Part shown: piece after piece, positions 25,379-55,747 of the stretch
Numbering within the stretch: position 1 is the stretch's first letter
How the letters are laid out: every line of letters starts with the position of its first letter
Assembly: GCA_016794925.1 (NCBI GenBank)
Contig: JAEUIW010000008.1
Location: forward strand, 1-64,000
DNA length: 64,000 nt
Origin: Phycisphaerae bacterium
GTDB lineage: Bacteria; Planctomycetota; Phycisphaerae; Phycisphaerales; UBA1924
Reading direction: 5' to 3'
Notes under the pieces: model-generated
Told to the model about the DNA's origin: nothing
The model's database searches: none
What the model saw: the letters and a program-made list of their open reading frames with translations, nothing else
Position numbers and translations under genes: made by a program

Positions 25379-27313
25379 ATGCCGGCCCGAGAGACGCCCG
25401 ATCCGAACAAGCGACCCGGAGCGACCGGCGGCGGGCGCGGCAAGCCCGCGCCGAAGGGCCCCTTGAAACCCACGCGCGTGCCCCCCGCCGGGTCCCATCC
25501 GCCCCGGCGCGACGGTCCGAACCCGACATCACGCCGCCTCGGCCCGCCCCGTGGCGTCGCCCCGCACCCCCGCCCAACCCAGGGTCGGCTGCTCAACATC
25601 GTTCATGAGGATGACGACCTGCTCGTCGTTGACAAGCCGCCGGGCTTGCTCTCGGCCTCCCCCGAGCCGCAGCGCCAACCCACCCTCTTCGACCTTGTGA
25701 AGCAGCACGTCCGCGACTCGATGCGCCGCAAGACCAAGCGCGGACAGGGCCCGAAAGCGTACATCATCCACCGGCTCGATCGCGAGGCCAGCGGGCTGCT
25801 GGTCTTCGCCAAGTCCGAGCGTGCATTCATCTGGCTGAAAGAGGATTTCAAGGCCAAGCGCGTCCACCGCAATTATCTCGCCCTGGCCGAGGGAGTCGTC
25901 GGCCCGCCCGGGCACGCCGGGACGGTCCAGACGTTCCTGATCGAAGACGACCAGGGGCGTGTCACGAGCATGGACCTCTCCCAATCGCGGGCCAGCGACG
26001 TGCGCGATCAGGCCAAACTCGCGGTGACGCACTACCGGGTCGTCGCCGCGGCGAACGATCGGACCCTCCTCAACATCCGCCTCGAGACCGGCCGGAAGCA
26101 CCAGATCCGCGTCCACTTGGCCCGCTTGGGACACCCACTCGTGGGAGATCCGATCTACCGGGCCCGCACGGATCCACTCCGACGCCTCGGTCTGCACGCA
26201 TGCGACCTCGGTTTCAAGCACCCCGCGACGGGGATGAGCCTGCGGTTCCACAGCGATGCGACCAACCAGTTCTACGGCGCGGTGAGCATGACACCCCCGT
26301 CGAAGGCGGCCCAGAGCCCGACCGAGATGCACCGGACCCTCCCCGAGGACGACGCACCGGTCGGGCCCGCGTTCATCCCGGATCTTCCCTTGCCCAGGGA
26401 GGCGCATCCCACGTTCGCGGTCGCGGGTTCACTCTCCTCGGTGGGCTCCGCCGCGGTGATCGACCAGGAACAACGCTCGCCGGGCTCGATCGAGGGGAGC
26501 CCGACGAACCCATCCGGGCCCGCCCCCCGATCGTCCCGTGACGCCGCGCCACCCGCCTCGACCTCGTGGGATGCGGTCGCGCCGTGGTACGACTCGTATC
26601 TGACCGGCGGGGGCTCGGACCATTACACCAACACGCTGATACCGGGCACATTGCGGCTCGTCCAACCGCGTCCCGGCGCTCGCCTGCTTGACCTCGCGTG
26701 CGGGCAAGGCATTCTGACTCGGGCGCTGGCGGAGTCCGGGGCCCAGGTCCTGGGGGTCGATTCGTCGCCGCGCCTGCTCGACACGGCCCGCAAGCACCCG
26801 TCACGCGGAGCGCCGATCGACTATCGGCTCTGCGATGCACGCGAACTTGACTCGCTGGGCGTGACCGGGTTGGACGCGTGCACCTGCCTCATGGGGCTGG
26901 GGAACATCGACCCGCTGGACGCGGTGCTGCCCGCGATCGCGCGCGCATTAAGGCCCGGGGGCGCATTTGTTTTTGTGGTCTCGCACCCCGCATTCCGCGC
27001 GCCCGTTCAGTCATCGTGGGGTTGGGATCCCAAGGCCAACCGACAATACCGGCGTCTCGACGGGTACCTGTCGAGCGCCCAGCACCCGATCGCGATGCAC
27101 CCGGGCAAGGACCCGGGCGTAACGACCTGGACGTTCCACCGCCCACTCCAGACGTATGTCAGGCTTCTGGCCGAGGCGGGTCTGGTGATCGATGCGCTCG
27201 AGGAATGGCCGGGTCAGCGCGCGAGTCAGCCCGGTCCCCGGGCCGCCGAGGAGAACCGGGCGCGGCGCGAGATCCCGCTTTTTCTGGCCGTCCGCGCGCG
27301 TCGGCTTGCTTGA
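25379..27313 (+). CDS. RluA-family pseudouridine synthase fused to a SAM methyltransferase
   Basis: A 644-residue fusion. Residues 1-70 are a Pro/Arg-rich, probably disordered tail. Residues 75-305 are an RluA-type RNA pseudouridine synthase: VDKPPGLLS, the catalytic Asp in HRLDREASGLLVFAKS near residue 127, and ETGRKHQIRVHLARLGHPLVGDP. A linker of about 90 residues follows. Residues 398-640 are a class I methyltransferase: WYDSYL, the SAM-binding LLDLACGQGILTRAL near 437, and GVDSSPRLLD. The two parts share one uninterrupted frame with no internal stop, so this is a true fusion and not two genes. The product could modify one RNA twice, but the methyltransferase could also act on a small molecule. 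The mRNA is predicted to be leaderless. Confidence 0.85.
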   Translation: MPARETPDPNKRPGATGGGRGKPAPKGPLKPTRVPPAGSHPPRRDGPNPTSRRLGPPRGVAPHPRPTQGRLLNIVHEDDDLLVVDKPPGLLSASPEPQRQPTLFDLVKQHVRDSMRRKTKRGQGPKAYIIHRLDREASGLLVFAKSERAFIWLKEDFKAKRVHRNYLALAEGVVGPPGHAGTVQTFLIEDDQGRVTSMDLSQSRASDVRDQAKLAVTHYRVVAAANDRTLLNIRLETGRKHQIRVHLARLGHPLVGDPIYRARTDPLRRLGLHACDLGFKHPATGMSLRFHSDATNQFYGAVSMTPPSKAAQSPTEMHRTLPEDDAPVGPAFIPDLPLPREAHPTFAVAGSLSSVGSAAVIDQEQRSPGSIEGSPTNPSGPAPRSSRDAAPPASTSWDAVAPWYDSYLTGGGSDHYTNTLIPGTLRLVQPRPGARLLDLACGQGILTRALAESGAQVLGVDSSPRLLDTARKHPSRGAPIDYRLCDARELDSLGVTGLDACTCLMGLGNIDPLDAVLPAIARALRPGGAFVFVVSHPAFRAPVQSSWGWDPKANRQYRRLDGYLSSAQHPIAMHPGKDPGVTTWTFHRPLQTYVRLLAEAGLVIDALEEWPGQRASQPGPRAAEENRARREIPLFLAVRARRLA

Positions 27314-27391: not shown

Positions 27392-27470
27392 TGAGTGTCC
27401 AGAATGAACGCGCAGAGAGACGCGTTGCACGCCCACGGAAGGGATGGTTTTCGGAGCAGAGGAGTTGAAC

Positions 27471-28700
27471 ATGTCGCCGATTCATCGGAGCGCTTGGGCG
27501 CCTGGTTTTGTACTCGCGGTTGTGTCGGGATCGGCGTGGGCCCAACCCTCGTTCGAAGGGATCGGGAGCTTGCCGAACTCGAACCGTGGGTCGAGTTCGC
27601 TGGCGATCTCGCGTGACGGCACAACCATCGTGGGAAAGGCGCTCACGGCGAATGCGCCCGTGGCGATGCGGAAAGTGGGCTCGGGCCCACTTTCGTCGCT
27701 GGGCGTGCTGAACAACTACCTCTCGAGCTACGCCAACGCCTGCAGCGGCGACGGCCTTCGCGTCGTCGGTCAGTGCAACACGCTGACGTCCTCGACGGCC
27801 TTTCTGTGGACGCTCTCGGGCGGCATGGTTGACATGGGTTCGATGCTGCCGGGCCAGTCTTCCGCGGCGTACGGCATCTCGGCCGACGGCACGATCATCG
27901 TGGGCACTTCAGGGACGTCGGCGTTCCGCTGGACGGCGACGAGCGGGATGGTGAACATCGGGACGCTGGGCGGCACCGGCACCTCGACCATCGCGGTGGG
28001 CATCTCGGCCGATGGCTCGACGATCGTCGGCAGTTCCGGGAATCAGGCCGTGCGGAAGGTTGGGACGCAGCCGTTGGCGGGCCTGGGCGATCTGCCGGGC
28101 AGCGCCGAATTTTCCTACGCCACGGCGGCCTCGGCCGATGGCTCGGCGATTGTCGGGGTGGGCACCTCGACCCTGGGAACGGAGGCGTTCCGCTGGACGG
28201 CGGCGAGCGGGATGGTGGGCCTGGGCTCCCTGGTTGATCCGTTCGACGATTTTTACTCGGAGGCGTACGCGGTGTCGCCCGACGGCGCCTTCGTGGGCGG
28301 TCAGAGTGTGTACGCGGGCGACGACGTGGCGTTCCTGTGGTCGGAGAGCCTGGGGATGGTCGACATCCGGGCGTACCTGCTCGCGCTGGGCGTGTTGAAC
28401 GTCGAGGATTGGCAGCTCGAGCGGGCCACGGGGATCACTTCCGACGGCACCGTGCTGACGATCGTCGGCTTTGGCTTGAACCCGGCGGGCACGACCGAGG
28501 GCTGGAAGGCGCGCGTGCTGATCCCCGCCGCGACTTGCCCGGGCGATTTCAACGGCGATACGTCCGTCGATGATTTCGATTATTTCGACTTCCTCAACGC
28601 CTTCTTCGCCAACGACATGAGCGCCGACTTCAACGGCGACACGTCCGTCGACGACTTCGACTATTTCGATTTCCTCAACGCCTTCTTCGCCAGCTGCTGA
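27471..28700 (+). CDS. Exported HAF-repeat protein with two C-terminal dockerin-like modules
   Basis: A 409-residue secreted protein. The ATG at 27471 is set by AGAGGAG 6 nt upstream and gives a signal peptide ending SGSAWA|Q near residue 24. Residues 30-350 contain repeats of the HAF type (for example SGMVDMGSM, FRWTATSGMVNIGTLGG, ADGSTIVG, FRWTAASGMVGLG), which probably form a beta-propeller. The C-terminus is C-P-G followed by two nearly identical calcium loops, each DFNGDTSVDDFDYFDFLNAF, and a final S-C before the stop. The D-x-N/D-x-D-x-S/T-x-D-D pattern is that of dockerin/EF-hand loops. The module recurs on two other exported proteins in this window and on a decayed copy. Its binding partner is unknown. 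Confidence 0.85.
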   Translation: MSPIHRSAWAPGFVLAVVSGSAWAQPSFEGIGSLPNSNRGSSSLAISRDGTTIVGKALTANAPVAMRKVGSGPLSSLGVLNNYLSSYANACSGDGLRVVGQCNTLTSSTAFLWTLSGGMVDMGSMLPGQSSAAYGISADGTIIVGTSGTSAFRWTATSGMVNIGTLGGTGTSTIAVGISADGSTIVGSSGNQAVRKVGTQPLAGLGDLPGSAEFSYATAASADGSAIVGVGTSTLGTEAFRWTAASGMVGLGSLVDPFDDFYSEAYAVSPDGAFVGGQSVYAGDDVAFLWSESLGMVDIRAYLLALGVLNVEDWQLERATGITSDGTVLTIVGFGLNPAGTTEGWKARVLIPAATCPGDFNGDTSVDDFDYFDFLNAFFANDMSADFNGDTSVDDFDYFDFLNAFFASC

Positions 28701-44863: not shown

Positions 44864-46402
44864 TCATAGGGGGGCTTCCTCCGCGTCGAACCCGACGGGA
44901 GAGCGCAGGAACCGACCCTTCAACACCCGACCCTTGAAGCGGGGTTCATCGGAGCGGGCGGAGAGTTGGTGCGCCTCGAACCCGAGTCGGGTCAGCCGTC
45001 GGCGGAGTTCACGCTCGCCGATGAGGAGGGCCATGTCGCGCCGGAGGGCGTCGGCGACGCCGTAGACGTGGGCGTAGAGCCGCTGGTCGCTCGCACGCAC
45101 GATGGGTGGGCATCGGTCATGGAGATAGCGGGCGAGTGCGGTGGAATCGGTGAGGTCCACACGCCGAGCATCCGCGCCACCGCCGAGCACGGCCAACCAT
45201 CCCCGCGTCTGGTTCGCCTCCGTGTCGCCTTCGTCGCTCGGCTCGGCCAGGTCGAAGAGAGCCTGTGCGATCGGCCTCCAATCCTTCCGCACGCGCGGGC
45301 GAATCACGATGCCCAGCACGTCTGCGATCGCGGCTTGCACGCGGGTCGGATCAAGCACCGCCTTCGCGTCGCCAAGTTGCACGGCGCGCCCGTCGGTCGT
45401 GAGGAGGTCGAAGTCGGCGCGGTCCCCGCCACGCTTCACGATGCGTACCACGGGGACGCCGGGCAGAGCGCGGTGGAGGAGGTCCAGCGCCTTCGCCCGG
45501 TCGGGCGCTCGCGGCGCATCGCCGTTGTGCGCTCCGTTGCACCGATCCGACGGCGGGCGCGGGTGCTTCTCTCCAGCGTCGAGCCCGGAGCGGATGGTCG
45601 CTTGGGCTTCATCATCGGGGAGTCCGCACACGCGGGCCGCGCCCGCGAGCGCATGCTCGGCATCATCGCGTGCCAGTTCGCCCGCGCCGATGAGAGTGCC
45701 GAGATTGAACGCAGCACGGTTGAGCGTGTGGTTCCTCTCGCCTTCCGCTGCGCGTACCACGGTCTCCGCTTCACCGGTGAGCGCCGCAAGGGCGCGCGGC
45801 GTTGCAGTTCGGGCCGGACGATCCGCGTCGGGTTCCGGTGGTCGCACAGAGTCAGCGCGTGGTGAGGGCTGCGAGGCGAGCATCCTTGCCCGCCAGCCTT
45901 CGGGGAGCGCGTCAAACGGAGCAAACGCAATGTCGGTCGGACTCCGGCCAGGCGGCCATTCGTACCGTCGCCCCGTCTCAGGGTGAATCCCTCCGGCAAG
46001 CACAACTTGCCCGCCGTCCCCCCGAATGTCAATCGTGGGATGAATCGCCTTCACGGAGTTCCGCACCGGCTGGGGTGGGGCTGCAAAGTAGAGGTGCAAC
46101 CCGCCTTTTCCTGTGCGGACGGTCGGTGTCACGATAGATGCGAGTTCGGGAGGCAGCGTCGGCGCGTCCACATCCAGCACGATCACGCCGGATGGTTGGC
46201 CCGTGCGAACGCCCACGTTGCCCGATCGCGCCCATGATTCAATGAGCGGTCGGATCGGGCGGTGAAGCGACTGCCAGCCCTTCAGCCGTGGGCGTTTTCC
46301 ATCAAGCGGTGTCAGGCACCATCCACGATCGAACGCGGCGCGTGCTTCGTCCACGCGAACGTCCGGGGATTGCGCTTCCTGCCCATCGTTCTCCGCTACC
46401 AT
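44864..46402 (-). CDS. Bifunctional DNA primase/polymerase (prim-pol) of the element
   Basis: A 512-residue replication protein. The ATG at 46402 has GGAGG 6 nt upstream. Residues 17-180 are a prim-pol (AEP superfamily) domain: LTPLDGKRPRLKGW, the metal-binding D-V-D at residues 77-79 in VIVLDVD, the catalytic His at 103 in TGKGGLHLYF, and DIRGDGGQVVLAGGIHPETG. A linker follows, then a region with helices typical of primase C-terminal domains (residues 215-275). The last 230 residues are an unfamiliar domain without Walker motifs, so no helicase is fused. It would start replication of the excised element, perhaps at the iteron region just downstream. Helicase must come from host or helper phage. 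Confidence 0.82.
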   Translation of the reverse strand: MVAENDGQEAQSPDVRVDEARAAFDRGWCLTPLDGKRPRLKGWQSLHRPIRPLIESWARSGNVGVRTGQPSGVIVLDVDAPTLPPELASIVTPTVRTGKGGLHLYFAAPPQPVRNSVKAIHPTIDIRGDGGQVVLAGGIHPETGRRYEWPPGRSPTDIAFAPFDALPEGWRARMLASQPSPRADSVRPPEPDADRPARTATPRALAALTGEAETVVRAAEGERNHTLNRAAFNLGTLIGAGELARDDAEHALAGAARVCGLPDDEAQATIRSGLDAGEKHPRPPSDRCNGAHNGDAPRAPDRAKALDLLHRALPGVPVVRIVKRGGDRADFDLLTTDGRAVQLGDAKAVLDPTRVQAAIADVLGIVIRPRVRKDWRPIAQALFDLAEPSDEGDTEANQTRGWLAVLGGGADARRVDLTDSTALARYLHDRCPPIVRASDQRLYAHVYGVADALRRDMALLIGERELRRRLTRLGFEAHQLSARSDEPRFKGRVLKGRFLRSPVGFDAEEAPL

Positions 46403-46466
46403 GCAGCACCTCCATCGCCCGGCGTCGGCTACCGCGTCAACAGAGCCGACGGGCGGGCTTTCTGAT

Positions 46467-46787
46467 TCAGAGTCCTTCGCTCACGAGTTCCCGCTCCACC
46501 GTGCGAGCACGCGATGTCACCACGCGGCGGGACTCGGGCGCGGGAACTCCCGCGCCGCCCCGCGCCCGTGTGACGCCTTCGAGGAAGCGGACGATTGCCT
46601 CGACGGACGTGCATCGGGTCGCGCCGACGCTCACGGTTTCGAGCCGGACGCCTGAGCATCCAGCCGACGCCCATCGGTGGATCGTGGCGACGTGCGGGCG
46701 CTTGCCGCGCCGACGGCTCGGCCAGAGCCGACACTTCGTCGCTTGGGAGAGTGTGAGAAGTTCCTCGCGGGTCGGGTCGATGGGCAT
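46467..46787 (-). CDS. DUF1580 helix-turn-helix protein (possible excisionase/regulator)
   Basis: A 106-residue protein from the ATG at 46787 (GAGGA just upstream). Residues 7-67 read ELLTLSQATKCRLWPSRRRGKRPHVATIHRWASAGCSGVRLETVSVGATRCTSVEAIVRFLEGV, a MerR/AlpA-like winged helix of the DUF1580 family, which is known mainly from planctomycetes and their integrated elements. The tail is basic. Proteins of this size and fold next to an integrase commonly act as recombination directionality factors or as transcriptional activators of the element. It lies 64 nt before prim-pol and could control it. DNA-binding is inferred from the fold. Confidence 0.72.
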   Translation of the reverse strand: MPIDPTREELLTLSQATKCRLWPSRRRGKRPHVATIHRWASAGCSGVRLETVSVGATRCTSVEAIVRFLEGVTRARGGAGVPAPESRRVVTSRARTVERELVSEGL

Positions 46788-46933
46788 GGCATCCTCGCGT
46801 CTCTCGGCGCGCGTCTGCGCCGTCATGCGAGGAGTTTCGACCCGAGTTCAGAATCGACAAGAGCGCCCGCGCCGGTTGGCGAGCATGGCGAGCATTCTCC
46901 CAAACTGGCGATAATGCTGGCGATGATTGCCAA

Positions 46934-47605
46934 TCAGCGAAGCCGGTTCAGCAAGCGCGTCCACGCATAAACGCACCTTTCGGCTTCATCCGGTGCGGCA
47001 AGGGGAGCGACTTCGATCAGTCGCTGAACCTCAGCCTTTCCGTAGCGTCGGCCTTTCTTCCGCCGGGGGAGCCGAGACTTGTAGAGAATCCGACCCATTG
47101 AGCGGGCGCTGGTCGCAGGAACGCCAGGTGCGGCTGTAGCCCTTTGGAGTTCAGCCTTTGTCCATGACGGCGGAGGCTCGGGCGCTGATTCAAGTTCGCT
47201 TAGCGAGCCATAGAGACCTTCGACAGCATCGACGATTGTGGTGGTCAACTTCCGAAGGTCGCTCCGATTCCCGACGTTGAGAAGGCTGTCCGCGATTCGC
47301 TCGGCCAACCCGATTGCTTCGCGCACATGCTTGGGCTGATCGTCCGGCAGTACGCACCCGCCACGCTCGCACGCTGCCATGATGTTCTGGTGCGCCCGCT
47401 CGATTTCCGCTCTAATCCACGCTTGGAGTGCATCACCATCCAACGCTTGAAGTTGGAGCCAGCGCGCGCGGCTGAGCGCGTTGGTCGCGGTGCTCTGGAC
47501 CCAGTGCTCAGCTTCGATTAGACTTGAAACGTCATCGGCAAAGCCCGCTAACGCTTCCGACAGTTCGTCCGTGTACGTCTCTCGGTTGTTCATTGCATCC
47601 TGCAT
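46934..47605 (-). CDS. Unknown element protein downstream of integrase
   Basis: A 223-residue soluble protein that I do not recognise. Its ATG lies 3 nt after the integrase stop, so the two are co-transcribed. The N-terminal 140 residues are predicted helical and acidic (for example YTDELSEALAGFADDVSSLIEAEHW, AIGLAERIADSLLNV). The middle is Pro-rich (SAPEPPPSWTKAEL). The C-terminal 60 residues are basic and look DNA-binding: RSMGRILYKSRLPRRKKGRRYGKAEVQRLIEVA. An ATG at 47593 is an equally possible start. Its position suggests a role in integration, excision or element maintenance. Confidence 0.65.
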   Translation of the reverse strand: MQDAMNNRETYTDELSEALAGFADDVSSLIEAEHWVQSTATNALSRARWLQLQALDGDALQAWIRAEIERAHQNIMAACERGGCVLPDDQPKHVREAIGLAERIADSLLNVGNRSDLRKLTTTIVDAVEGLYGSLSELESAPEPPPSWTKAELQRATAAPGVPATSARSMGRILYKSRLPRRKKGRRYGKAEVQRLIEVAPLAAPDEAERCVYAWTRLLNRLR

Positions 47606-47608
47606 GGT

Positions 47609-48841
47609 TCACCCCGTTGCGAGCGCCACCTGCGCGCCCAGTTCCGTTGCCCGCTCAGCGTAGATTTGGGTCGTCTCCAACTTCGAGTGCCCGAGCACAG
47701 CGCCCGCAGCATCCAACCCGAAGCGCTTGCGGAGTTCAGTCGCCTTCGAGTGCCGGAGTTGATTCGGTGTCCACCGTGGCGTTCCGGCATCATCGCACGC
47801 CCGGCGGATCGCCTGAGCGTAGTTCGTCGTCGTGTACCGATCATTGAGTCGTCGGCGGGGCTTGCGTGCGCGCTCGGCGTCGCGGCGCAGCCGGGACGGG
47901 GTGAACCGAGTCCGGTTCGCCGCACGCTCACGGCGACGCCGCTCCTCGTCTGAGGCGCGGGGAGAGAAGATCGGCTCCCCAAGTTCCGCTCGCAGATACC
48001 GCCGAACGATGTCCTGCGCCTTCGGGCCGATGGGCACGCTCCGGGAGTGCCCGAAGTGCGCCGTCTTGTGCTCGCGGGGCTGGTAGAGCCACACGTCGCC
48101 CGTGGTGTCAATCTCGCCGGTCGTCATGCGGCACACTTCGCCGGGCCTCATGCCCGTGAGGCGCTGGAGGCGAACCATGTCGGCAACCACGGTGGACAGG
48201 TGGGGGAGCGTCGTCTCCACCACAGCATCGGCGACGGCCCGCACGGGCGGAGGTTCCGGGGCGTCGGTTCGCCCGACTTTCAGCCCGTCCACGGCTTGCA
48301 GGGCTTGCAGCACGCTCGGCGGGAGCAGTTGCTCGCCCACGGCCCAACGGAACAGCCGACGCACCCACTGGAGCGCCCGGTTGATGTAGGGCCGCGAGAG
48401 GCGACGCGGCGGAGCCGTCGGATCGGCCAGCGCGATCCGTTCATCCAGAAGGGCACGCTGGAACGCCTTGAGCGCCAGCGGGCCGAACTCCGTCGCCTGC
48501 GTCGGGCCGTACAACTTCCGCAACCGGCGGAGCGTCGGCGCGATCGTGCCCTCCCGCGTCTCCGGGCGGTAGTACACCTTGACGTGCTTCCAGTACCGGA
48601 GGATGAGATCGTTCACGGTGAGCGCCGACGGCTCCGGCGCGGTGTACGTCGGGCTTCCAGCGGCGAGCCATTCAGCGAGCCGACGCCGGTACTCCGCCTT
48701 GCTCGCCTTCGAGCCGAACGCACCGAGGTAGAAGTCGCGCCCGCCGAACGTGGCGACGGCTTGACCACTCGGTCGGTGTCGGCGGTACGACGGGATTCGA
48801 CGGGGCGCGGCGGGCGTGTCCGGAAGGGCGTTCGGGTTCAT
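47609..48841 (-). CDS. int: Tyrosine recombinase (integrase) of the element
   Basis: A 410-residue site-specific recombinase. The ATG at 48841 has GAGG 7 nt upstream. The N-terminal 100 residues hold a basic arm-binding region and the SAM-like core-binding domain (TVNDLILRYWKHVKVYYRP). Catalytic residues are visible in order: Arg in LTGMRPGEVCRM near residue 231, the H-x-x-R-like box NQLRHSKATELRKRFG near 361, the second His in AVLGHSKLETTQ near 385, and the Tyr nucleophile in IYAER near 394. The usual order H-x-L-R-H-T reads P-N-Q-L-R-H-S, so the first His is replaced by Asn, a known but less common variant. It lies beside the tRNA-Gly gene, its attachment site. Confidence 0.9.
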   Translation of the reverse strand: MNPNALPDTPAAPRRIPSYRRHRPSGQAVATFGGRDFYLGAFGSKASKAEYRRRLAEWLAAGSPTYTAPEPSALTVNDLILRYWKHVKVYYRPETREGTIAPTLRRLRKLYGPTQATEFGPLALKAFQRALLDERIALADPTAPPRRLSRPYINRALQWVRRLFRWAVGEQLLPPSVLQALQAVDGLKVGRTDAPEPPPVRAVADAVVETTLPHLSTVVADMVRLQRLTGMRPGEVCRMTTGEIDTTGDVWLYQPREHKTAHFGHSRSVPIGPKAQDIVRRYLRAELGEPIFSPRASDEERRRRERAANRTRFTPSRLRRDAERARKPRRRLNDRYTTTNYAQAIRRACDDAGTPRWTPNQLRHSKATELRKRFGLDAAGAVLGHSKLETTQIYAERATELGAQVALATG

Positions 48842-50463: not shown

Positions 50464-52929
50464 ATGGGAAATAGTACGGATTTAGTTTGGGCAAAATCTG
50501 ACAAAAGGTCTTATAACTATTACGGAAGTTCACTCACAATCCTCCTTCTTTGCGTGGCTGGGTGTGCTTCGAACCCGGACCAGATCGTGCGAGATGGCGA
50601 CCGAGGCAACCGGGTCGTCACGCTCGAAGATCTCCGCATTGACGGTCGTTTGCCCGCGATCAAACCCGAAGGACTGGTGCTGCGACGCGAGCACGGTGAT
50701 GAGGAAGACACGCAACGCGAATCCGGACCACCGCCGTACGGCTACATCAAGATCATCGGCGAGCCGGACCCGAACTGGTCGCCCACTCCGATCACGAAAC
50801 GCGGACCGAATTTGAGTTGGTCGTTCATCGGCCCACGCCCCATGGCCAGCGAGTATTGGTCCGGCGAGGGGAACGCCGGCGGGCACATCGCGGATATCGC
50901 GCCGCACCCGACAGATCCGAACATCTGCTACATCGCCGCGGACACCGGCGGAATCTGGAGGACCGTGGATGGGGGCGCGAATTGGGCGCCCCTTACCGAC
51001 ACGCTTTCGATCATGAACCACGGGGCCGTTGCGCTCGACCCGCAGAACCCGAGCATCGTGTACGCCGGCACCGGTTCATACAACGCGGGCACCAGCGGCG
51101 ACGGGCTGTTCCGCTCGACGGACGCGGGGGCGACGTGGAACCGCATCGGTACCACCTCGCAGGTGGGCTCGCAGATTACCGACATCGTGGTCCACCCGAC
51201 CATTTCGAGCACGATCCACCTCACGGGCTCGTCGGGGTACCGGCGCTCGACCGACAACGGCGCGACGTGGTCGCTCCGTCTGGGCTCGGCCTGCACGTCG
51301 CTGGCCGTCCACCCGACGACGCCCAACACGCTGTACGTGGGCCGCAACGGGCAGGGGGTGTACCGCTCCACGGACGGCGGCACCACCCTGACAAAGCTCG
51401 CCGGCGGGCTGCCCGCCTCGGGATTCTCGGCGGTGTACGTCGGGCTGGCCAAGTCCAACCCGAACGTGCTGTACACCGTGTTCGTGAACGGGGGAGGCAT
51501 CCTGGGGCTGTACCGTTCCGCCGACGGCGGCACCACCTGGACCCAGAAGGCCGCGACGCCGAATTTCCCGAACCCTCAGGGCAACTGGAATTGCTACCTC
51601 GCCGTCAGCCCGACGAACGAGAACACGGTTTTCGCCGGGGGAGTCGACCCCCGCTACGCCACCAGCGGCATCATCCGCACCACCGACGGCGGGGACACAT
51701 GGACGGAGATCTCCGACGGGCCCTCACAGGTGCACCCGGATCATCACTGCATGGCCTTCGGGCCCGTCGGTGTGATCTGGGAAGGGAACGACGGGGGCAT
51801 CTACAAGTCCACCAACAACGGTGATAACTGGACCAACCTGAACGCGACGCTGGGAGCCGCGCAGATCTACAACCTCGTTCAGCACCCCACGCTGACCAAC
51901 CGCGCCCTGGGTGGGACGCAGGACAACGGCACACCCGAGCGCACCTCGTCGTCATTCTCGTGGTCGCAACTCCAGGTCGGCGACGGCGGGTTCTCGGTCA
52001 TCGATCCCTCCACCTCGACCAACCGGCGGTACACCACCTACGTCTATCTCGCGATCACGCGCTGGACAGGATCGTCCGCGAAGGGAATAAGCGGTCCCTG
52101 GGGTTCGGATCCGGTGAACTTCATCGCGCCGCTCGTGGGCGACCCCAACACCGCGAACAACCTGCTCGGCGGAACCAACCGCGTGTGGCGGACCACCAAC
52201 GCGACCGCGACCACGCCCGCCTGGGCCGCGATCTCGACCACCTCCAACGCCGCCGGCGGCACCATCAACGCCATCGCCGTCGCCAAGGGCGCTTCGAACA
52301 CCATCTATTCGGGCTCGTCCACAGGAAAGGTGTACGTCACGACCGACGCGGCGAACTGGGCCGATCGCTCGGCCGGGCTTCCTTCCGGCCAGATCTCCGA
52401 TCTTGTCATCTCGCCGACCAATCCCGCCGTTGCGTACGTGACCTTCTACAACACCACCGGAGCCCGCGTCCTGCGCACGGACAATGCGGGGGTGAGCTGG
52501 ACCAACGTGACCGGCACGCTCCCCTCGGGCGTGCGCGCCAACGCCCTGGCCGTGGACTGGGACTACGACCTCACGAAACCCAGCCTGTACATCGGCGCCG
52601 GCGCCGGGATGTACTTCTCGCTCGACGGCGGCGCGGCCTGGACCAAGAGCAACGCCACCCTCCCCAACGTGAACGTCGCCGACCTCTTCATCGATCCCGT
52701 GGCGCGCGTGCTCGTCGCCGGGACCTACGGGCGCGGCGCCTGGCGCGCCGGCCTCATCGATCCCTGCCCCGCCGATTTCAACGCCGACGGCTCCGTGGAC
52801 GACTTTGACTACTTTGATTTCCTCAACGCGCTGAACTCCGTCAGCCCCGCGGCGGACTTCAACGGCGATACCAGCGTGGACGATTTCGATTACTTTGATT
52901 TCCTGAACGCGTTCAACACGCCGTGCTGA
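50464..52929 (+). CDS. BNR/sortilin-like repeat lipoprotein with two C-terminal dockerin-like modules
   Basis: An 821-residue exported protein. The ATG at 50464 follows AAGGGA; the N-terminus has a lipobox, LTILLLCVAGC, with the lipidated Cys near residue 34. Residues 110-770 carry at least ten Asp-box (BNR) repeats of the form S-T-D-G-G-x-T-W (for example RTVDGGANWAPL, RSTDAGATWNRI, RSADGGTTWTQK, KSTNNGDNWTNL), so one or two beta-propellers of the sortilin/Vps10 or sialidase type are expected. No sialidase catalytic residues were recognised. The C-terminus is C-P-A followed by DFNADGSVDDFDYFDFLNAL and DFNGDTSVDDFDYFDFLNAF, ending N-T-P-C. The first 100 nt of the gene are markedly AT-rich compared with the rest. 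Confidence 0.85.
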   Translation: MGNSTDLVWAKSDKRSYNYYGSSLTILLLCVAGCASNPDQIVRDGDRGNRVVTLEDLRIDGRLPAIKPEGLVLRREHGDEEDTQRESGPPPYGYIKIIGEPDPNWSPTPITKRGPNLSWSFIGPRPMASEYWSGEGNAGGHIADIAPHPTDPNICYIAADTGGIWRTVDGGANWAPLTDTLSIMNHGAVALDPQNPSIVYAGTGSYNAGTSGDGLFRSTDAGATWNRIGTTSQVGSQITDIVVHPTISSTIHLTGSSGYRRSTDNGATWSLRLGSACTSLAVHPTTPNTLYVGRNGQGVYRSTDGGTTLTKLAGGLPASGFSAVYVGLAKSNPNVLYTVFVNGGGILGLYRSADGGTTWTQKAATPNFPNPQGNWNCYLAVSPTNENTVFAGGVDPRYATSGIIRTTDGGDTWTEISDGPSQVHPDHHCMAFGPVGVIWEGNDGGIYKSTNNGDNWTNLNATLGAAQIYNLVQHPTLTNRALGGTQDNGTPERTSSSFSWSQLQVGDGGFSVIDPSTSTNRRYTTYVYLAITRWTGSSAKGISGPWGSDPVNFIAPLVGDPNTANNLLGGTNRVWRTTNATATTPAWAAISTTSNAAGGTINAIAVAKGASNTIYSGSSTGKVYVTTDAANWADRSAGLPSGQISDLVISPTNPAVAYVTFYNTTGARVLRTDNAGVSWTNVTGTLPSGVRANALAVDWDYDLTKPSLYIGAGAGMYFSLDGGAAWTKSNATLPNVNVADLFIDPVARVLVAGTYGRGAWRAGLIDPCPADFNADGSVDDFDYFDFLNALNSVSPAADFNGDTSVDDFDYFDFLNAFNTPC

Positions 52930-53063
52930 CCGAGCGCGGGCCCGCCCCGATCAGGAAGGACCGCGAAGATGCGCCGTGCGCCGCTCGCTCAAGCCCCGGA
53001 CGACTCGCGGGCCGCGCGGCCCCCATCACCGCGATCACCGTCGTCGCCTGTCCAGAAATCAAC

Positions 53064-53300
53064 ATGTACCAGCTCCGTTGTCGCATCACGAACGCCCGCG
53101 AGAACGTCACGAGCCAACCGACCGCGCCGATCGTCCGCGTCGCGGACTTCAACTGCGATGGGCACATCGACGATTCGAGCTACTTCGATTACCTGAACGC
53201 GCTGAACATGGGGTCGCCGAGCGCGGACCTTGACCGCTACGGACCGCTCGACGACTTCGACCGCTTTGCGTTCACGAACGCCCTCAACGCCGGGTGCTGA
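53064..53300 (+). pseudogene. Orphan, decayed dockerin-like module
   Basis: This frame ends with ADFNCDGHIDDSSYFDYLNALN, a spacer, and ADLDRYGPLDDFDRFAFTNALNAGC, which is recognisably the same tandem module found on the neighbouring exported proteins, including the terminal Cys. The second loop has lost two of its acidic ligands. There is no carrier domain and no signal peptide in frame. An ATG at 52969 with a good ribosome site lies upstream in another frame, which suggests that an ancestral gene has been shortened and frameshifted. It follows the BNR lipoprotein gene after 135 bp and may be a remnant of a duplicated gene end. Confidence 0.5.
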
Positions 53301-53530: not shown

Positions 53531-55747
53531 ATGGTGCCCGGCTGCCGTTCTCAATTGAACCGTTCCTATTACCCCGCAACGGGATGTGGTCCAACTGCGG
53601 CTCGTCGCGCGGGAAGAGTCTTGGCAATCCTGCCTGCAATTTGCATTATCGGACTTGTTGGGCTCGTCAGTGCGGCGATGGCTGTGCTGCCCCCGGTTCC
53701 CGTCCCGCCGGAGAACCCCATTACGGAATCCAAGCGCGTGCTTGGCAAGATCCTGTTTTTCGATGAACAACTCTCGACTGCGAACAACGTGTCCTGCGCC
53801 ACGTGCCACGCAATCGGAGTCGGCGGAACCGAAGGACGCCCCCGGGTACGCAATCCTGGTCCGGACGGCGTGCTCAACTCCCCGGACGACATTTTCGGCT
53901 CCGCGGGCGTGATTCGATCCGACGCCGCCAACAGCGTCAAGCGGGACGCGGTGTTCGGCACCGGCGTGCAGGTAACCGGACGGGCGGCCCCGACCATGAT
54001 CAACGCGGCGTTCTATCCCACCCTGTTCTGGGAAGGTCGCGCCTTGTCCCAGTTCATCGATCCGCAAACCGGACAGGTCGCGATCCAGCAGGGCGGCGCG
54101 CTGGAGAGTCAGGCCGTCGGACCTCCGCTCAATTCGATCGAAATGGCGCACGAATCAACCGACTGGAACGCGGTCGCGTCCAAGCTCCAGGGCGCGCGGC
54201 CGCTCGACCTTGCCACAACGCATCCCGCGGATGTCGCCGCGGCGCTGGCTGACCGACCGTCGTACCCCGAGTTGTTCCGGCGCGCGTTCGGCGACACGGC
54301 CATCACCGCGCGACGCATCGCCTTCGCGATCGCGACGTACCAGCGGACGCTGATCGCCAACCAGACGCCGTTCGACCTGAACACGCTGACGCCCCAGCAG
54401 GCGCAGGGGCTGCAGGAGTTCCAGAATCACAGCTGCGCGGTCTGCCACAGCCTGAACAACGGGCTGTTCACGGACTTTTCCTTCCGCAACATCGGCATCC
54501 GCCCGCCGCAGGAGGACACCGGCCGGCAGATCATCACCGGCAATCCCAACGACCGGGGCCGGTTCAAGGTGCCGGCCCTCCGGAACGTGGGGCTGATGCG
54601 CGAGTTCATGCACAACGGGCAGTTCACCCAGATCCAGCAGGTGATCGATTTCTACGCGCGGGCGCCGGGCGCGGCCCCGCAGTTCCAGGACAACATCGAC
54701 CCGATCATTCCCGGCATCCGCATCAACCCGCAGGACCGGGCCCTGATCGACGAGTTCATCCGCAACGGCCTGACGGACCCGCGCGTGGCGAGCGGCGCGT
54801 TCCCCTTCGATCGCCCCGTGCTCTTCACCGAGCGCCCCGGTGACCGGACCACTTCGGTGGACGTGAACGGCGGGGTCGCCGGCAGCGGCGGGTTCCGGCC
54901 GCGCGCGCTGATCCTCGCTCCATCGATGATCGGGAACATGAGTTACCGGGTCGGGCTGGACGGGGCCCTGGGCGGCGCGACCGCGTCGCTGGGCATCTCG
55001 CTGCAGCCGCCGCAGAACAACCGCATCACGCCGAGTCAGTTTGTCGGCAGCGTGACGGCGCAGGGCGTGGGCGCGGGCAACGGCCTCGCGACGCTCCACT
55101 GGCCTCTCCCGGCCGGGCTGTTCCAACCCGGGGACGTGGTGTTCGCGCAGTGGTTCGTGACCGACGCGGGCGCGCCGGGCGGACAGGCGCTCTCGGACGT
55201 GCTGCGCATCCCGATCTTCTGCGGCTCGGCGGGGTGCTGCCAGCCGATCTCGGCGCAGGTCGCGTCGCGACGGACCTGTCCGTCCCAGGGCGTGGTGTTC
55301 AACGTTGCCGCGGCGGGGGGCAACGGTGCGTTCACCTACCAGTGGCAGCGCGAGACGGCCGCGGGATCGAACGTGTTCGTGAACCTCAACGACGGGTCCA
55401 CGGCGTCGTGGGACGGGGGCAACCCGCTGGTCCGCGGCGTGGTGTCCGGCTCGGCCTCGATCGCGTTGACGCTGGCGCCGGCTCCGGGAGCGAAGCTCGG
55501 TGCGCCGCACGCCATCCGTTACCGGTGCGTCACGACGAACGCATGCGGGAGCGCGAGCAGCGGCGCCGCATCGCTGGCGGTCTGCCCCGCGGACGTGAAC
55601 TGCGACGGCCAGGTTGATGATTTCGACCTCTTCGATCTGCTGAACAGCCTGTTCACGCAGAGCGCGGGGGCCGACTACAACGGCGACGGGTCGATTGACG
55701 ACTTCGACTACTTCGATTTCCTCAACGCGTTCAACGGCGCGTGCTGA
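53531..55747 (+). CDS. Diheme cytochrome c peroxidase-like protein with dockerin-like C-terminus
   Basis: A 738-residue exported protein. The ATG at 53531 follows GGAGA at about 6 nt; a long signal sequence ends near residue 53 (VGLVSAAMA|V). Residues 60-420 form a MauG/CcpA-type diheme domain: heme-binding SCATCH (Cys 89, Cys 92, His 93) and SCAVCH (Cys 302, Cys 305, His 306), and the late motif EFMHNGQFTQIQQVIDFYARAP with a likely Met ligand. The middle is unassigned. A PKD/Ig-like segment with a Cys pair follows (FTYQWQR). The end is C-P-A plus two dockerin-like loops and N-G-A-C. It would reduce peroxide or oxidise a cofactor outside the cytoplasmic membrane. Confidence 0.87.
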   Translation: MVPGCRSQLNRSYYPATGCGPTAARRAGRVLAILPAICIIGLVGLVSAAMAVLPPVPVPPENPITESKRVLGKILFFDEQLSTANNVSCATCHAIGVGGTEGRPRVRNPGPDGVLNSPDDIFGSAGVIRSDAANSVKRDAVFGTGVQVTGRAAPTMINAAFYPTLFWEGRALSQFIDPQTGQVAIQQGGALESQAVGPPLNSIEMAHESTDWNAVASKLQGARPLDLATTHPADVAAALADRPSYPELFRRAFGDTAITARRIAFAIATYQRTLIANQTPFDLNTLTPQQAQGLQEFQNHSCAVCHSLNNGLFTDFSFRNIGIRPPQEDTGRQIITGNPNDRGRFKVPALRNVGLMREFMHNGQFTQIQQVIDFYARAPGAAPQFQDNIDPIIPGIRINPQDRALIDEFIRNGLTDPRVASGAFPFDRPVLFTERPGDRTTSVDVNGGVAGSGGFRPRALILAPSMIGNMSYRVGLDGALGGATASLGISLQPPQNNRITPSQFVGSVTAQGVGAGNGLATLHWPLPAGLFQPGDVVFAQWFVTDAGAPGGQALSDVLRIPIFCGSAGCCQPISAQVASRRTCPSQGVVFNVAAAGGNGAFTYQWQRETAAGSNVFVNLNDGSTASWDGGNPLVRGVVSGSASIALTLAPAPGAKLGAPHAIRYRCVTTNACGSASSGAASLAVCPADVNCDGQVDDFDLFDLLNSLFTQSAGADYNGDGSIDDFDYFDFLNAFNGAC

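Follow-up and report, generated by a model that had tools for sequence, protein, structure and literature searches.

Dockerins are known as one half of a pair, and in the clostridia their specificity is carried by particular contact residues. The type I clostridial dockerins (PF00404; e.g. 1ohz, 2vn5 and 6kge) consist of a duplicated 12-residue calcium loop with a helix, have symmetric contact residues, and follow a code that is uniform within a species and different between species. For Clostridium thermocellum it was reported that the Ser-Thr pair of the contact region is highly conserved and hydrogen-bonds to the cohesin (PMC4728124). Head and tail of the domain are bound together by a clasp, formed by Tyr-5 stacking on Pro-66 (PMC4728124) or, in ScaA of R. 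flavefaciens, by an N-terminal Trp on a C-terminal Pro (PMC5864761). A cohesin-dockerin system has also been proposed for the freshwater Phycisphaerae, the 'planctosome', which rests on cohesin-bearing anchoring and adaptor proteins (PMC6461901). Exported proteins that are otherwise unrelated also share a C-terminal element in the PEP-CTERM/exosortase and 'choice-of-anchor' systems.

We have analyzed a C-terminal module that recurs in the window (the whole stretch of 64,000 nucleotides under study) and in the host genome to which it belongs. The module is already known, as NCBIfam names it 'GC-type dockerin' (dockerin_GC, NF041540); a search of the literature yielded no paper that names a GC-type dockerin. 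The NCBIfam entry is a family HMM only, to which we add the covariation of a Cys pair, the absence of a cohesin and a genus-specific code. The new observation is that the contact residues of the module are uniform within a genome and differ between genera.

The module and its carriers in the window

A first-pass annotation had described the module as the shared ending of three exported proteins. The three are indeed open reading frames that all end in it, but the count was too low, considering that the genome holds 90 matches and that the window contains a fourth, decayed copy. The features are, by position and strand:

27444..28700, +: exported HAF-repeat protein carrying the module (HAF_rpt 62 bits; dockerin_GC 29.5 bits)
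28536..28697, +: dockerin_GC module of the HAF protein (sequence, profile match and ungapped alignment)
28536-28538, +: first Cys of the HAF module
28545-28580, +: calcium loop 1 of the HAF module
28626-28661, +: calcium loop 2 of the HAF module
28695-28697, +: terminal Cys of the HAF module
50464..52929, +: BNR/Sortilin-type propeller lipoprotein carrying the module (lipobox VAG-C; profile matches)
52765..52926, +: dockerin_GC module of the BNR lipoprotein (profile; sequence modelled by AlphaFold2, pLDDT 93.9)
53142..53297, +: fourth, decayed dockerin_GC module (first Cys and some calcium ligands lost)
53531..55747, +: MauG-like di-haem peroxidase carrying the module (profile matches)
55583..55744, +: dockerin_GC module of the di-haem peroxidase (profile; alignment)

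The open frame of the HAF protein allows a start at the ATG at 27444 or at the one at 27471. Each of the three intact modules has 54 residues; no gaps are needed to align them, and the identity to the HAF module is 63-76%. They begin with a Cys, two further residues and a 12-residue calcium-type loop (D-F-N-x-D-x-S-V-D-D-F-D) that runs into the helix YFDFLNAF, after which a spacer of about 8 residues leads to another loop and helix, almost identical in sequence to the first pair, and to the final Cys. Both 12-residue loops are EF-hand-like (D1, N/D3, D5, D12) and each is followed by a helix, which is the pattern of a type I dockerin. The 'C-P' opening that had been described held for the Cys and not for the Pro, which is found in only 40 of the 89 copies of the genome; a Cys as very last residue is present in all three window copies and in 75 of the 89.

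All three proteins are matched by NF041540 (E-values of 7e-7, 2e-7 and 3e-5 for the HAF, BNR and peroxidase proteins, respectively), and they share with that family the 67-position model, the C-terminal place and the terminal Gly/Pro-Cys. When scored as whole proteins, the HAF (29.5 bits) and BNR (31.3 bits) proteins pass the curated cut-off of 29; the peroxidase lies below it (24.4 bits), but reaches 30.7 bits in the genome scan. The Pfam profile PF00404 (gathering score 22.9 bits) is passed by none of the window copies, with only the peroxidase giving a sub-threshold match (17.6 bits), and is passed at four other places in the host genome. Judged from the sequences, the likeness among the modules is far beyond chance, since the duplicated 12-residue loops recur in about 85 unrelated carriers, the loop residues are invariant and NF041540 detects all three window copies.

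The predicted fold points in the same direction. AlphaFold2 modelled the BNR module with a pLDDT of 93.9 and a pTM of 0.77, with helices at residues 13-24 and 40-50. Five sequences went into this run, among them the fourth copy of the window and a single distant module from a planctomycete. High confidence was reached by only two of its five models (93.9 and 89.6), with the others scoring near 52; the three near-identical modules alone gave a pLDDT of 49. Dockerins filled nearly all of the top Foldseek rows for the model, most of them in complex with cohesins (6kge, 2vn5, 2ozn, 5lxv, 1ohz; TM about 0.6), with weak E-values (best 0.29), and alignment to dockerins by VIA-align gave Z-scores of 5.0-5.4 over 50-54 of the 54 residues. 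These scores are modest because the module is short. A sequence search of the PDB also put dockerin-bearing chains first, weakly. As modelled, the module is a dockerin in which two repeats of an EF-hand-like calcium loop and a helix pack together, in line with the dockerin-like nature that was ascribed to it earlier. It differs from the type I clostridial dockerins in that its carriers are not a cellulase set, in the lack of a cohesin in the genome and in that the window copies miss the PF00404 cut-off.

Between the BNR and peroxidase genes, the region 52930-53300 encodes the last strand of an Ig-like domain followed by a module that lacks the first Cys, flanked by the two intact carriers. The decayed copy (53142-53297) looks, from its sequence, like the C-terminal remnant of another carrier gene, so that the fragment appears as a sign of carrier birth and death.

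Distribution, export and cysteine pair

The host genome (3.66 Mb in 344 contigs, 94.8% complete) was scanned for the module, as had been proposed, and contains 90 matches to NF041540 at E<=1, about 70 of them above the curated cut-off, in about 85 carriers. Within the order the module is dense in two families (f1, 16 of 16 genomes; f4, 13 of 15) and was absent at 1e-5 from the sampled genomes of f2, f3 and f5. In some family genomes the first-look candidates for dockerin_GC number more than 200, with scores obtained for only 23 of them. A search of genome contigs with the module itself gave a single distant relative, on a contig from a 'Planctomycetota bacterium'.

The carriers are unrelated to each other and comprise Ig-domain proteins, subtilases, reprolysin-like peptidases, BNR and HAF propellers, FG-GAP proteins, MauG-type peroxidases, lysyl-oxidase-like proteins and choice-of-anchor Q proteins (choice_anch_Q is present in three carriers). 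By a crude rule, the N-terminus is signal-peptide-like in 71 of 83 carriers versus 14% of internal blocks of the same proteins, and by a stricter threshold in 62 of 83 versus 5%. The failures are mostly frames cut at contig ends, or signal peptides that are visible by eye. The carriers thus look exported, as had been claimed, and no clearly cytoplasmic carrier was seen. Two of the cut frames, at the ends of contigs C222 and C33, both begin with TSSRFLSSELVQESQAGH, which is probably a shared contig-end assembly artefact. Several carriers possess an N-terminal lipobox (the BNR protein at 50464-52929 in the window, G000:C99:19882 and C233:2135), and these would be lipid-anchored and dockerin-tagged at once. 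A purely cell-anchoring role of the module would be redundant for carriers that are already lipoproteins; this speaks for the linking of proteins together rather than for a pure cell anchor.

The first and last Cys of the module are strongly coupled. Among 89 host copies 79 have both, 5 have neither, 4 have the last only and one has the first only (Fisher p=1.7e-5, with copies treated as independent). For the host and 15 other genomes together the counts are 129 with both, 19 with neither and 7 with one only (p 8e-18, which is not to be taken literally since the module sequences are related). Coupled loss of both residues is as expected of a disulfide. Most likely, therefore, the two Cys form a disulfide clasp that closes the module in the oxidizing compartment to which the carriers are exported, a reading of the sequences that agrees with the disulfide-closed module of the first-pass annotation. 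An isolated EF-hand without conserved Cys pairs, which that annotation had set against its own proposal, is not what we found. The loss of both Cys together also disfavours a role of the terminal Cys as a covalent anchoring site. The position of the pair resembles that of the known head-tail clasp of dockerins, where the GC-type module has the Cys pair and type I dockerins have the Tyr/Trp-Pro clasp (PMC4728124, PMC5864761).

The search for a partner

The Pfam cohesin profile PF00963 has no match in the host genome, even at E<=1, and a profile built from 20 cohesins of the class found nothing there at E<=10, in agreement with the earlier statement that no cohesin is seen. Could the system nevertheless be an ordinary cohesin-dockerin pair, the cohesin of which has diverged past detection or lies in the missing 5% or so of the genome? 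Cohesins do occur in the class (39 of 248 genomes by Pfam), a planctosome has been proposed for its freshwater members (PMC6461901), and the assembly is 94.8% complete in 344 contigs. On the other hand, Pfam cohesin is missing from 15 of the 16 sampled family genomes, some of which consist of one or two contigs, and the remaining one has a weak match, though all 16 carry dockerin_GC. In addition, the 20-cohesin profile was empty in 37 of 41 family genomes, yet gave matches in the other four. We thus regard an ordinary cohesin system as unlikely. The present system has in common with the planctosome that it is planctomycete, is not tied to cellulose and has dockerins on exported proteins such as reprolysin-like peptidases, but the cohesin-bearing anchoring and adaptor proteins were not found in the host.

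A sorting or secretion signal, read by the export machinery in the manner of PEP-CTERM or the C-terminal domains of the T9SS, would fit the strictly C-terminal place of the module on unrelated carriers, its absence from the ends of BNR homologues in a sister family, and the label 'domain-anchored' that NCBI gives to carriers. However, Pro-Glu-Pro, a transmembrane helix and a basic tail are missing from the C-termini that were read directly, which end in the module, and the PEP-CTERM matches of the genome lie elsewhere. The module shares with PEP-CTERM the position on the protein and differs in lacking a membrane helix and in being a folded calcium-type module. Exosortase occurs almost throughout the class, so that it is uninformative as a tracking partner and does not follow the module. 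A search for SprA, the T9SS translocon, gave no match in the host, a result to be read with the fact that the control genomes gave none either. As a wholesale change of contact residues between genera would moreover be unusual for such a signal, we consider a sorting role decidedly unlikely.

A third possibility is homotypic association, in which the modules bind each other and the tags knit the exported proteins together with no separate receptor. It would explain the missing cohesin, the uniform code across copies and both repeats, and the aromatic-rich helix. Against it, the PDB matches of the module are mostly dockerins in complex with cohesins, and we know of no dockerin that works mainly by self-association. 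This explanation therefore appears quite unlikely. As to other candidates, the carriers in the host genome have no telling recurrent neighbour gene family; the few repeated families that were looked at are kinases, ABC proteins and TPR glycosyltransferases and were rejected.

Contact residues within and between genera

We took as contact residues the loop positions 10-11 and the helix that follows. In the host, 152 of 174 repeats have D-F at positions 10-11, and modules of other genomes keep the same frame with different residues there and in the helix:

host: D-F, helix YFDFLN
genus g2: I-F, helix FLAFQN
g7 and g8: F-F, helix VQAFLN
g12: T-L, helix F(I,L)AFLN
g4, g10, g11 and family f4: A/G-x, helix LAxLLG

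The identity of the contact residues is 0.69 within genera versus 0.27 between them, and at position 10 alone 0.68 versus 0.09. When the twenty positions are compared one by one, position 10 shows the largest contrast (0.72 versus 0.10). None of 2000 label shuffles reached the observed contrast. The modules from outside the host, 2-7 per genome, come from the top of HMM lists ordered by score, which may inflate the likeness within those genomes; this does not apply to the host, for which almost every match was included. Within a single module, the two repeats have 0.68 of their contact residues in common.

The BNR propellers allow a comparison at matched distance in the remainder of the protein. 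Host paralogues are about as distant from each other as from homologues of other genera (34-39% passenger identity), whereas their contact residues agree at 75-80% inside the genome versus 0-30% outside. In family f5 the BNR homologues lack a terminal dockerin, so that the end of the protein is exchangeable.

Uniformity within a genome could also stem from recent spread, i.e. late gene-to-gene copying or gene conversion. In a few cases, such as C233:4773 and C233:5600, copies do match almost codon for codon, and the decayed window copy shows that there is turnover. In the 62 full-length host modules, however, the same codon is used for the same residue at a frequency of 0.646, which is the level expected by chance (0.623 from module usage, 0.654 from passenger usage). 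The synonymous sites are saturated while the protein motif is kept, and such randomized codons indicate selection on the protein instead of recent copying. The codon test largely refutes this explanation, which we find scarcely credible. A passive end cap, stabilized by calcium and a disulfide and serving protection or folding, the uniformity of which would reflect shared origin only, is in line with the both-or-neither pattern of the Cys, the calcium loops and the strictly C-terminal place. Yet it does not predict that contact positions, rather than calcium ligands or packing residues, differ most between genera, nor selection for identical residues after synonymous saturation, and we hold it to be highly unlikely.

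A contact surface that is uniform, genome-specific and under selection in about 85 carriers is best explained by one shared partner. We therefore think it probable, with room for doubt, that the module docks secreted proteins, as a disulfide-clasped C-terminal tag, onto a shared and genome-specific partner. In this docking scheme calcium would drive the folding of the module after export, whereupon the first and last Cys would close it. The tag, at the C-terminus of about 85 unrelated exported proteins, would then dock to the common partner through either repeat; as both repeats have the same contact residues (D-F and the helix), binding would be possible in either orientation. Having one partner or partner family in common would keep the contact sequence alike in all copies of a genome, and the code would shift between genera through co-evolution of the partner with its tags. 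A strongly diverged cohesin, a non-cohesin receptor or the modules themselves may serve as this partner. More tentatively, we entertain the possibility of a dockerin system that is free of cohesin altogether, in which another receptor, or the tags themselves, would collect exported proteins via a genus-private code on a clasped tag; in each genome it might then serve from some tens up to about two hundred such proteins. The shared receptor of the first-pass annotation thus gains indirect backing, from the selection for a uniform and genome-specific contact surface; the receptor itself was not found, and the sorting role that had been offered beside it appears unlikely.

One bacterial family thus has dockerins on a few percent of its genes, with one code per genome and no recognizable other half. 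The partner, once found, would explain how surface and secreted proteins are held together, and would also provide new orthogonal docking pairs, one per genus. In a true partner, the variation across genera has to follow that of the code (D-F, I-F, F-F or T-L).

Several further observations were made along the way. One host protein (G000:C155:11334-11651) ends in tandem dockerins, a classical one (C155:11517-11651) and a GC-type one, and might connect two codes as an adaptor. In the family genome G237 and on the Planctomycetota contig (4001-4195) there is a variant dockerin whose linker contains another Cys pair (NILDC...CPAD). In the window, a single frame at 25379-27310 (+) joins an RluA-type pseudouridine synthase to a downstream SAM methyltransferase domain, an apparent fusion. 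Near the BNR and peroxidase carriers, the region 44864-48841 (-) encodes a PrimPol-type primase/polymerase (44864-46402) and a tyrosine recombinase (47609-48841), and is probably an integrated element.
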